DNA from: a virus
Virus record (IMG/VR): IMGVR_UViG_3300027793_000305
Location: 1 to 22,209 of that record
Length of the DNA: 22,209 nucleotides
Direction: 5' to 3' (one strand)
Of the stretch, positions 10,075-13,966 are shown one piece after another (within the stretch, counting starts at the first letter, position 1; each line of letters starts with the position of its first letter). The translations under genes and the position numbers were made by a program. The notes under the pieces are model-generated. The model was not told the origin of the DNA and ran no database searches. It saw only the letters and a program-made list of their open reading frames with translations.

Positions 10075-11001
10075 ATGGCATCAACTGAACGATCTTTGGG
10101 ATGGGCAACGTCGGGCACCGGAGACGGTCCCGCAGGTGGCTACGACTCTACTCGCTGGCGTGCCAACGCACAAAAGTCGGACGGCACGGGCATCACGCTG
10201 TTCGGCTCATACATGGCGATGTCAGGAACGACGACATCGACCCTGACCATCGCTGATGGTGCAATCATCATCAACGGGTACACCTACGAGACCAACGGCA
10301 GTGTCACCATCTCGACCTCGGGACTCACTGGCACCTACAGCGTCATCGTTGTGGCCAATTCGACGGCGGGCACGGTGACGGTCACACAGACCGGCGCTGG
10401 GGGCACGACGATTGCGGCATCGACGGTGCGTGCGGCGATTGCGACGGCGGCACAGGTCACGACCATCACCACTGCCGTCGGTGCTGCCAACGTCATCACG
10501 CTGGGCACCATCGTCACCGCCGCCGGTGTCATCTCGTCGATTACGCCAGCATACCCATATAGCACCTCGCTGCAGGTGCCGTCGCAGGTCTACGGCTCGA
10601 TGTACGCACCTGGCGTCACCAGCATTCCCAACGTCACCTCGACGACGGTACTCTGGGCGACGACGGCGACGTCAGGTGAGGGCATCATCACTGCCAACGG
10701 CGCCACAGGAGAGTTCACCGTCGCACTTGCGGGCATCTATCAGGTCGATGGGCGTGTCGTATGGGACAGCAACACCGCAGGCGTGCGTCACATCCAAGTC
10801 GGCGGCACCGGCTTCACCTACGGAAGCATTGATGCACAGTACGAATCAATGCTGGCCACAAATCTCACCTACGGACTGGCGATGCAGATGAGCGGCACCA
10901 TCGCACTCAACGCCGGTGCGACGGTCAGGCTTGCAGTGTATCAGTCCAGCGGGTCAGCACGCACCATCACCGATGGCATCATTAAAATCGTGAGACTCTA
11001 G
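10075..11001 (+). CDS. Tail fibre or receptor-binding protein with C1q-like C-terminus
   Basis: The product is 308 aa, Thr/Ser/Ala/Gly-rich, with ATG 10075 after AGGAGG (10065-10070). The N-terminal 170 residues are low-complexity beta-rich (TTTSTLTIADGAIIINGYTY, SVTISTSGLTGTYSVIVVAN), probably a tip-attachment module. Residues about 200-308 have a C1q/TNF-like jelly-roll pattern: GEFTVALAGIYQVDGRVVWD, then ALNAGATVRLAVYQSSGSAR and a closing strand IIKIVRL. Such domains are common at the distal ends of fibres and bind host surface sugars. Trimer formation and receptor binding are inferred. No catalytic motif is visible. Confidence 0.6.
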   Translation: MASTERSLGWATSGTGDGPAGGYDSTRWRANAQKSDGTGITLFGSYMAMSGTTTSTLTIADGAIIINGYTYETNGSVTISTSGLTGTYSVIVVANSTAGTVTVTQTGAGGTTIAASTVRAAIATAAQVTTITTAVGAANVITLGTIVTAAGVISSITPAYPYSTSLQVPSQVYGSMYAPGVTSIPNVTSTTVLWATTATSGEGIITANGATGEFTVALAGIYQVDGRVVWDSNTAGVRHIQVGGTGFTYGSIDAQYESMLATNLTYGLAMQMSGTIALNAGATVRLAVYQSSGSARTITDGIIKIVRL

Positions 11002-12581: not shown

Positions 12582-12617
12582 CACGAACACCGCCGAGCGC
12601 ACACGGCGGTGTTCGTG
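12582..12617 (+). terminator. Perfect 14-bp hairpin after the late operon
   Basis: CACGAACACCGCCG (12582-12595) pairs perfectly with 12604-12617 around an 8-nt loop, AGCGCACA, 33 nt after the last tail gene. There is no T-run, so termination would rely on the second hairpin or on a factor. Confidence 0.6.
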
Positions 12618-12621
12618 TATA

Positions 12622-12666
12622 CACCGACCCCCCACGTAGTTGGCCAGACTACGCAGGGGGTCGGTG
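12622..12666 (+). terminator. Composite terminator hairpin of the late operon
   Basis: CACCGACCCCC (12622-12632) pairs with GGGGGTCGGTG (12656-12666), and inside it CGTAGT (12635-12640) pairs with ACTACG (12648-12653), separated by a symmetric CA/CA internal loop. A weak T-rich tail (GTTATTT) follows. It sits between the late operon and the divergently composed small-gene region. Both orientations could terminate, but only the + strand has genes here. Confidence 0.7.
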
Positions 12667-12744
12667 CCGTTATTTAGTGCATCTCCGTCGAAAGGAACTC
12701 AAAACCAGAGACTCACCACGAGCAGTATATCACGATTTTGGTTG

Positions 12745-12856
12745 TAATCTTTCTGTCATGAAAATATCAGGTAATTATCAGGTTGAAGGTGTTGACAGGT
12801 GATATTACTAGTGCTACAATGTGTGCATAAGGTTGAACGAGAGAGTCAACCGAACG
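12745..12856 (+). repeat. 112-bp promoter/operator/leader module, copy A
   Basis: This block recurs at 13491-13602 with four mismatches by my alignment. It contains two direct TATCAGGT sites (12765-12772, 12776-12783) 11 bp apart, then a sigma70 promoter and a 5' leader hairpin, GGTTGA (12831-12836) with TCAACC (12846-12851). The 12549-12744 stretch before it holds the two terminator hairpins and no gene I can support. Confidence 0.9.
12792..12820 (+). promoter_or_regulatory. Sigma70 promoter A
   Basis: TTGACA (12792-12797), a 17-nt spacer and TACAAT (12815-12820) are five or six matches to each consensus hexamer. Transcription would start near 12827, just before the leader hairpin. The TATCAGGT pair directly upstream of the -35 is a likely activator or repressor site. 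Confidence 0.85.
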
Positions 12857-12875
12857 CCACAGAAAGGGCAAAACG

Positions 12876-13493
12876 ATGAGCAAGCAGTTTTCAGTAACCC
12901 GCGACGAGATGTACGCCTGGATGACCGAAGCCCACGAGAGCATCACCAACGTCATGACCGAGGGCACCGGCGTCATGATCGGCATCATCCGCGACAGCAT
13001 GGCAGAGGATGCCATGTGGTGGGAGACCAGTGGCACCATCACCGACACCGACATCATCGAGGTACTCGAGGAGTGGCGCGCTGATAATCGCGTCGAGGAG
13101 ACGACGCCCACGACGCCAGCCCCCGTGGCTGGCACAACGGGCACCGGATTCGAGACGATGAGCGTCGATGATCTGCGTGAGTATGTGGCCACCGTCGAGG
13201 GCGAGTGGCAGCGTGGCGAAATCGAGGGGGCGATGGGACGCGAGGTGGTTCGCCAAGCCCGCCAGCGCCTCGCCGAGGCGGAGGAGACGACGCCCACGAC
13301 GCCAGCTCCAGTGGTTGATCGCACCGAACGCGCCGCTCTCGCCTCGATGTTCTGCTGGAACATGGCCGTCGATGCCGATATCAAGGCGCGCCGATGCCGA
13401 GACGCTGGCGATGACGAAGGCGCCAAGCGCCACGATGTCGCAGTGGCGCACTACATCCGCAATTACACGCGGTTGCAGTACGGCGACGAGTAA
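12876..13493 (+). CDS. Unknown 205-aa protein with duplicated ETTPTTPAPV linker
   Basis: I do not recognise this family. ATG 12876 is preceded by AGAAAGGG in the leader of promoter A. The protein has three acidic/helical segments (about 1-70, 88-135, 147-205) separated by two nearly identical linkers, EETTPTTPAPV, at about residues 74-84 and 136-146, encoded by nearly identical DNA. The first segment is rich in Met/Glu/Asp; the last has two cysteines (CWNM, RRCRD) and basic residues. There is no signal peptide or transmembrane segment. The bead-on-string layout suggests an adaptor or anti-host protein made early. Its TAA stop is the first codon of repeat copy B. Confidence 0.8.
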   Translation: MSKQFSVTRDEMYAWMTEAHESITNVMTEGTGVMIGIIRDSMAEDAMWWETSGTITDTDIIEVLEEWRADNRVEETTPTTPAPVAGTTGTGFETMSVDDLREYVATVEGEWQRGEIEGAMGREVVRQARQRLAEAEETTPTTPAPVVDRTERAALASMFCWNMAVDADIKARRCRDAGDDEGAKRHDVAVAHYIRNYTRLQYGDE

Positions 13494-13602
13494 TCTTTCT
13501 GTAATCGAAATATCAGGTAATTATCAGGTTGAAGGTATTGACAGGTGATATTACTAGTGCTACAATGTGTGCATAAGGTTGAACGAGAGAGTCAACCGAA
13601 CG
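13491..13602 (+). repeat. 112-bp promoter/operator/leader module, copy B
   Basis: Second copy of the block at 12745-12856, same length, with four mismatches (three near the start, one just before the -35). The TATCAGGT pair is at 13511-13518 and 13522-13529; the leader hairpin arms are 13577-13582 and 13592-13597. It begins with the TAA stop codon of the 205-aa gene. Together the copies bracket that gene. Confidence 0.9.
13538..13566 (+). promoter_or_regulatory. Sigma70 promoter B
   Basis: TTGACA (13538-13543), 17-nt spacer, TACAAT (13561-13566), identical to promoter A. It would drive 13619 and probably the overlapping small genes after it. Confidence 0.85.
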
Positions 13603-13618
13603 ACGAAAGGGAACGACG

Positions 13619-13894
13619 ATGAACAAGCCAATCCGCTACAGCAACAGCCAACAGAAAAAGCTCGACCACCTGTTCTTTTGTCACGCCGCTGCAATTCAGA
13701 CCAGCAACAAAGTGCGCGCCGAAGCGTTGATGGTCGAGATTGACGCACTCCGCGCCAAAGTCGCCGCCAACAAAGCTCGCGCCGCTGCCAGCGCCGAAGC
13801 GCGCCGCCAAGCCAGCCGCGAGAAGTGGCTCCAAGAGCAGATGGAGATTGCCGCCGCAGCCGAAGCACAGCGCCAAGCAAGCCGCAGCAAGTAA
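13619..13894 (+). CDS. Small coiled-coil protein, unknown function
   Basis: The product is 91 aa, MNKPIRYSNSQQKKLDHLFF onward. From about residue 28 it is almost entirely Ala/Glu/Arg/Lys helix, with repeated AEARRQASREK / AEAQRQASRSK units, predicting a coiled coil. The N-terminal 27 residues contain one cysteine and are less regular. ATG 13619 is preceded by GAAAGGGAACGACG, the RBS just after the promoter B leader. The family is not recognised; DNA binding or a scaffold role would fit such a protein, but nothing decides it. Confidence 0.75.
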   Translation: MNKPIRYSNSQQKKLDHLFFCHAAAIQTSNKVRAEALMVEIDALRAKVAANKARAAASAEARRQASREKWLQEQMEIAAAAEAQRQASRSK

Positions 13895-13906
13895 GACGAA
13901 ACCGAC

Positions 13907-13946
13907 GGGGCGTGCGATGCCCCACAGTCTGGCGGTGATGCCGCCA
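13907..13946 (+). promoter_or_regulatory. Two small intergenic hairpins
   Basis: GGGGC (13907-13911) pairs with GCCCC (13919-13923), and TGGCGG (13930-13935) with CCGCCA (13941-13946). They lie in the 72-nt gap before the next RBS, as do the larger hairpins elsewhere in the genome. Pairing only; no function is shown. Confidence 0.4.
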
Positions 13947-13966
13947 CTGATGAGTCGAAAGGAACG

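Follow-up and report, generated by a model that had tools for sequence, protein, structure and literature searches.

A duplicated putative promoter-leader module that probably moves with early genes in an uncultured phage

The window, an uncultured virus contig of 22,209 nt from a metagenome, carries two nearly identical blocks that bracket a single gene. We consider it likely that these blocks are strong early promoter/leader modules which shuffle together with early genes. The sequence evidence comprises the repeat itself, an empty site in relatives, the distribution across the phage family, the duplication of a whole unit in one relative and covariation in the leader hairpin; promoter activity, a role of the hairpin as RNA and the route of recombination are what we infer from it.

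Each block would be a complete early promoter-leader module with a strong predicted promoter of the sigma70 type, boosted or controlled by upstream A/T tracts that are phased by 11 bp, one helical turn. The transcript would carry a short stem-loop at its 5′ end. The module and the single open reading frame after it would recombine as a whole, with the array start and the stop codon as the ends of the unit. In the window, a 401-bp unit of module and gene B would have been inserted directly behind the stop codon of a 205-aa gene via matches of 4 and 13 nt, probably during co-infection with a related phage, and new early genes would thereby arrive with their own promoter. This would be a concrete case of small phages gaining early genes with ready-made regulation, and it combines an exact empty site, defined unit ends and a paralogous duplication with covarying hairpins.

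Parts of the duplicated block

The longest direct repeat of the window comprises 113 nt (12744–12856 and 13490–13602) with 96% identity and a spacing of 746. None of the other repeat pairs listed for the window exceeds 43 nt, which excludes chance as the origin of this one. The features to which we refer are the following:

12582–12666 (no strand): two strong inverted repeats, 14 bp with 100% identity (12582–12617) and 19 bp with 89% identity (12622–12666)
12745–12856 (+): module 1, consisting of array, promoter and 5′ leader, from repeat comparison
12754–12783 (+): array of module 1 with 11-bp units, TGTCATGAAAA, TATCAGGTAAT, TATCAGGT
12792–12820 (+): promoter 1, TTGACA-N17-TACAAT, predicted
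12831–12851 (+): leader hairpin 1, GGTTGA-9 nt-TCAACC, 6-bp stem
12876–13493 (+): 205-aa early gene, open reading frame
13491–13602 (+): module 2, with array at 13511–13529, promoter at 13538–13566 and hairpin at 13577–13597
13494–13894 (+): inserted unit of 401 bp, the remainder of module 2 plus gene B up to its stop
13619–13894 (+): gene B, 91 aa, directly after the single module in G001
13895–13966 (+): intergenic hairpin element, after gene C in G001 and L015 and after gene B in the window

The two modules differ at four positions (12757, 12760, 12761 and 12791). TATCAGGT starts at 12765 and 12776 in the first copy and at 13511 and 13522 in the second, and on either strand of the window there is one further exact copy outside both blocks, at 10738. 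The hexamers of the predicted promoters reach 11/12 in a sigma70-type score in both copies, and these are the top two promoter scores within 12.4–22.2 kb. The A/T tracts of module 1 match the family register of −29/−18 from the −35 hexamer, which is described below. Both leader hairpins begin about 4 nt past the predicted transcription start. Folding of the leader RNA gave −11.7 kcal/mol for copy 1 (z −3.35, 0/200 shuffles equally good) and −8.3 kcal/mol for copy 2 (z −1.6, 14/200 shuffles equally good). The TAA of the 205-aa gene forms the start of copy 2. A preliminary description had read these features from the letters (four differences between the blocks, paired TATCAGGT sites at 11-bp phasing, a TTGACA-N17-TACAAT promoter in each block, a leader hairpin near the start, and a second copy opening exactly at the stop codon of the 205-aa gene), and all of them were recovered in our analysis.

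The inverted repeats at 12582–12666 lie after the last tail gene and upstream of module 1. They are conserved in the relatives G001 and L015 and probably mark the end of late transcription.

Empty site, family distribution and leader hairpin

G001 (27,275 nt) and L015 each have the block once, and L026 has it on the opposite strand; in G001 and L015 the tail protein beside it is 98–99% identical to that of the window. In L026 (G003) the tail region is inverted relative to the capsid region, and this contig is probably an assembly or rearrangement chimera.

In G001 the module is followed by gene B, a spacer, gene C and gene D. In L015 gene X and gene C come after the module, and the contig breaks off in the same post-C spacer. 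The window has module 1, a 205-aa gene composed of a new N-terminal part and C, module 2, gene B and gene D. Residues ~134–205 of the 205-aa protein correspond to the separate 67-aa gene C of both relatives, so that in the window the C part is fused to a different N-terminal part. When 13494–13894 was deleted in silico, the junction between the stop of C and the following sequence (C/D) of G001 and L015 was restored, with both flanks continuous in the relatives and the empty site aligned at the stop codon. The moved unit thus consists of promoter, leader and open reading frame and has 401 bp; the 4-nt match GTAA forms its left join and the 13-nt match AGTAAGACGAAAC its right join.

The preliminary description had proposed a recombination that excises 746 bp and leaves one promoter. 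Such an event would indeed yield a single-module layout like that of G001, with the module directly before gene B, but according to the relatives the unit that is present or absent is the 401-bp segment. The one module of G001 has a leader tail like that of copy 1 (GCCACAGAAAGGG), followed by a start region like that of copy 2 (AACGACGATGAACAAG). It may be a hybrid of the kind left by recombination between two modules; equally, G001 may represent the ancestral state.

A tandem duplication of the module and its first gene in the lineage of the window, with later replacement of the intervening gene and no import, appears unlikely to us. It could draw on L208, which has the module and the same gene twice, and on the blocks of the window being slightly more alike (96%) than module 1 is to the L015 module (94%). 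However, simple duplication should produce two copies of one gene, while copy 2 precedes the nearly identical gene B (91 aa) of G001 and the gene before it ends in gene C of G001; moreover, the empty site holds neither module 2 nor gene B. We regard it as highly improbable that the assembly merged two co-occurring strains into a chimeric tandem. In favour of this, the window stems from a metagenome, the search for its module 2 junction in other contigs found none, so that the junction is known from one contig, and the family includes L026 with its inverted, probably chimeric layout. Against this, the copies differ and their flanks are unique, the 4-nt match at the left join is too short for a k-mer misassembly, and layouts with two or three modules were assembled independently in nine other contigs. 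The exchange of module and gene as a unit is our preferred reading.

No assignment of the 205-aa protein was obtained from Pfam or PHROG, and a search of viral contigs revealed no close relatives of it. A 37-bp repeat (13095–13131 and 13281–13317) encodes two copies of an ETTPTTPAPV linker within this protein, and first genes of relatives bear similar low-complexity linkers (EVVEAPAAEV), which suggests domain swapping at linkers. The intergenic element at 13895–13966, which ends with GGCGGTGATGCCGCCACTGATGAGTC, adjoins the right-hand match of the inserted unit. It recurs between small early genes of G001 (L142:7141 and L142:7575), and a diverged form is present in L208.

Among 50,697 phage records the window has no near relative, and none of T4 type; its capsid protein is encoded at 72 IMG/VR loci. 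By alignment of the tail protein, 45 family loci were retrieved. In nearly every genome with enough sequence, the start of a homologous module lies downstream of the tail361 gene, at +706 to +1310 nt. The module probably forms the point, conserved in the family, at which early transcription begins shortly after the tail genes. Ten genomes contain two or three copies (the window, L190, L191, L193, L197, L198, L201, L208, L211 and L212). Copies within a genome are 67–91% alike, versus 47% (maximum 56%) for shuffled sequence. The genes after the modules belong to several families, which do not cluster cleanly as low-complexity linkers join them. Gene X follows the sole module in L015 and the last module in L208 and L212, and gene B follows the sole module in G001 and the second module in the window. 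The block, which the preliminary description had proposed to look for in other genomes, is thus not confined to the window, being found in G001, L015 and L026 and family-wide. Its view of a self-contained cassette likewise agrees with the single-module relatives, with the repeats before different genes and with the unit duplicated in L208. Comparison of the block with cultured phages returned only short Vibrio phage matches (E 0.4), which we rejected as chance, and comparison with plasmids returned none.

The age of the two-module layout appears to differ between lineages. In the AAATTGGT clade, second copies are mostly at least as similar to second copies of other genomes as to the first copy of their own genome, so that the layout there is old and mostly inherited rather than constantly shuffling. 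In the lineage of the window the layout is recent, as the 27 kb of G001 contain only one copy.

L208 holds two copies, 92% identical, of a 332-bp unit that runs from the beginning of the array through the stop of the gene; between them lies an unrelated gene that resembles Dam methylase as judged by eye. The hairpin stems of the duplicates are GGTTGAA/TTCAACC and GGTTAAG/CTTAACC and thus differ by two compensatory pairs. At the same place, stems of GGTTC/GAACC (L026), GGTTCA/TGAACC (G011) and GGTCAA/TTGACC (L076) were found. Loop length varies from 2 to 9 across relatives, which favours an RNA hairpin over a fixed dimer site on DNA. The hairpin probably protects the mRNA. One clade of family members has no leader hairpin, which counts against the preferred reading. 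A search of Rfam gave nothing credible.

The phased array upstream of the promoter

In 22 family modules the A/T content reaches 95–100% near −41, −29, −18 and −8 from the −35 hexamer, and autocorrelation of the arrays peaks at lag 11. The heptamers between the A/T tracts (TATCAGG, CTCGTCG, TTGGTGC) are specific for lineages, yet are repeated within an array, and the L187 array mixes two kinds. Phase and A/T tracts are thus constant across the family, and the heptamer is the variable part.

Contacts of the alpha-CTD and phased A-tracts are established knowledge. The array could be only an extended UP element, in which phased A-tracts are touched by the alpha subunit of RNA polymerase or bend the DNA and give a strong, unregulated early promoter. 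We give this close to an even chance: the A/T maxima of the 22 modules lie in the known UP-element zone, but the non-A heptamers, which an UP element does not need, repeat in each array too. A role of the array as operator, implied in the preliminary description, is also possible and in our judgement falls somewhat short of even; its tandem 11-bp units would be bound by a repressor or an activator, and the duplicated gene would be co-regulated. The heptamer repeats inside the array and its difference between lineages would fit such sites. Conversely, the heptamer varies freely among lineages while the A/T phasing is constant, and the L187 array contains both heptamers. UP element and tandem operator may coexist, and each is compatible with the preferred reading of a mobile early module.

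An operator could be bound, for example, by a host regulator of the PhoB/OmpR type or by a protein of the phage itself:

18405–18599 (+): 64-aa ribbon-helix-helix protein near primase, candidate array binder

A PhoB/OmpR-type box takes the place of the −35 element and lies some 10 bp ahead of the −10 hexamer. The window array shares with such boxes 11-bp repeats beside a promoter; it differs by a perfect TTGACA, and the last array unit begins at a distance of 28 or 39 nt from the −10 box. The 64-aa protein has homologues in several family genomes, which counts in favour of the operator. Its AlphaFold model (pLDDT 79) gave Arc, CopASO, AmrZ and CopG as best PDB matches, with probabilities up to 1.0 but E values of at least 0.045, and the HMM match to Arc had an E value of 0.054. 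In the monomer model the strand of the beta-alpha-alpha ribbon-helix-helix fold is not formed. The structure comparison supports assignment of the modelled protein to an Arc-like ribbon-helix-helix fold.

A palindrome in the −35/−10 spacer was considered as a repressor site in the window; it is not significant there and is not claimed. Perfect palindromes (TATCTATATAGATA, TTGTATATACAA) occur in the spacer of the L213, L214, L208 and L221 modules and are clear in G011/L214, L208 and L221; in some clades they are a possible repressor site.

We also scanned for pairs of TATCAGGT with no promoter required and found six contigs with 3–5 tandem units of the TATCAGGTATT type. In 6/6 a −10 box (at least 5/6) lies exactly 28 nt after the start of the last unit, a fixed distance that speaks for an operator. 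The units of the window, 39 and 50 nt before the −10 box, keep the same 11-bp register. By gene content the six contigs are unrelated to the window. Blastp comparison of the window with the other array phages showed almost no shared proteins (E<=1e-4) and no shared regulator, which counts against the operator reading. The shared 28-nt register could mean that one regulator acts in a host group that these phages have in common. That the TATCAGGT array is a regulatory code common to phages without common genes seems doubtful to us on the present sequence comparison. If it were true, one regulator, encoded by the host or spread among phages, would control many such early promoters, and the mobile modules would put captured genes under its control. 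The combination of array and −10 box, searched in 84,980 species genomes, returned only two hits, both in Bacteroidales, which look like coding sequence and were rejected as chance. We set aside many further hits of the pattern scans that look like protein-coding stretches in other phages.

Further observations were made on the array phages. Four of them have, downstream of the array, an early gene of a common family (MFYAIEHAYG...), for which Pfam gave no match:

G018:1341–1940: member of the family
G019:33786–34187: member of the family
G020:320–724: member of the family
G022:16428–16817 (minus strand): member of the family

An 83-kb phage contig (L153/G031) has two near-identical TATCAGGTATT-type promoters (40044–40086 and 41334–41376), about 1.3 kb apart and in the same 28-nt register. 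At the end of the G021 contig (L145 1–900) successive small-gene cassettes each have an array-like promoter, and two of these cassettes have a terminator-like palindrome (GGGGGTAGGGGGACCCCCTACCCCC) ahead of them.

Related promoter cassettes and a second repeat-bounded site

In the PeSL (promoter early stem-loop) cassettes of T4-type phages, each copy has a stem-loop that acts as a terminator and is joined to the promoter on its upstream side. These cassettes were reportedly first described by Arbiol (2010) and Comeau (2014). PMC4503421 presents them as a repeated intergenic early promoter with stem-loop and ties them to gene shuffling between related phages. The window module resembles them by its predicted sigma70-type early promoter with high scores in both copies, and by the occurrence of two or three copies in ten genomes, with different genes after them and at boundaries of shuffled genes. 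It differs in that the hairpin lies in the leader after the start and an 11-bp array lies upstream. No upstream terminator is joined to it: the inverted repeats of copy 1 are about 80 bp upstream, and copy 2 directly follows a stop codon. Furthermore, the module is carried by small-genome contigs (up to ~30 kb) that are not of T4 type. By analogy, the module may function like PeSL with a different anatomy.

Repeated intergenic promoter sequences before many viral genes are also found in archaeal viruses. Halovirus HF2 has intergenic promoter repeats of 29 or 58 bp with proven promoter activity (PMC8707807), and for HGTV-1 shuffling was suggested for a repeated promoter/inverted-repeat motif (PMC3950731); in contrast to the window, these are archaeal promoters with more copies per genome. 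In Cluster K mycobacteriophages, SAS and ESAS are repeats with inverted repeats (17 bp) just upstream of genes; their sequence is specific for the subcluster and conserved with the gene, SAS is linked to translation starts, and the role of ESAS was left open (PMC3203893). They are like the module in being repeated upstream of genes, with inverted repeats and a clade-specific sequence, whereas no 11-bp array or comparable leader hairpin is described for them in that paper. Repeated viral promoter cassettes are thus already known, and the combination of a leader hairpin with an upstream phased array is the new anatomy.

In archaeal viruses, conserved regulatory sequences of early genes were used to find anti-defence genes, the functions of which were tested (PMC11065993). 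As there, a common strong early promoter would mark an early gene set; the systems differ in that those viruses are archaeal and their gene functions were tested, while the module is known from its sequence. The module would mark fast-changing early genes, candidates for host takeover or anti-defence, and could hence be used as bait for collecting such genes from metagenomes, comparable to the approach in PMC11065993.

A 42-bp repeat (15681–15722 and 16240–16281) includes a ribosome-binding site and brackets a 166-aa gene. The preliminary description had counted such hairpin-RBS repeats as another kind of cassette in this phage, and G001 bears this out: it has one copy (near L142:9338–9383), which joins the left flank of copy 1 to the right flank of copy 2 and is followed by other genes. 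The locus appears to be a second repeat-bounded site of gene exchange.
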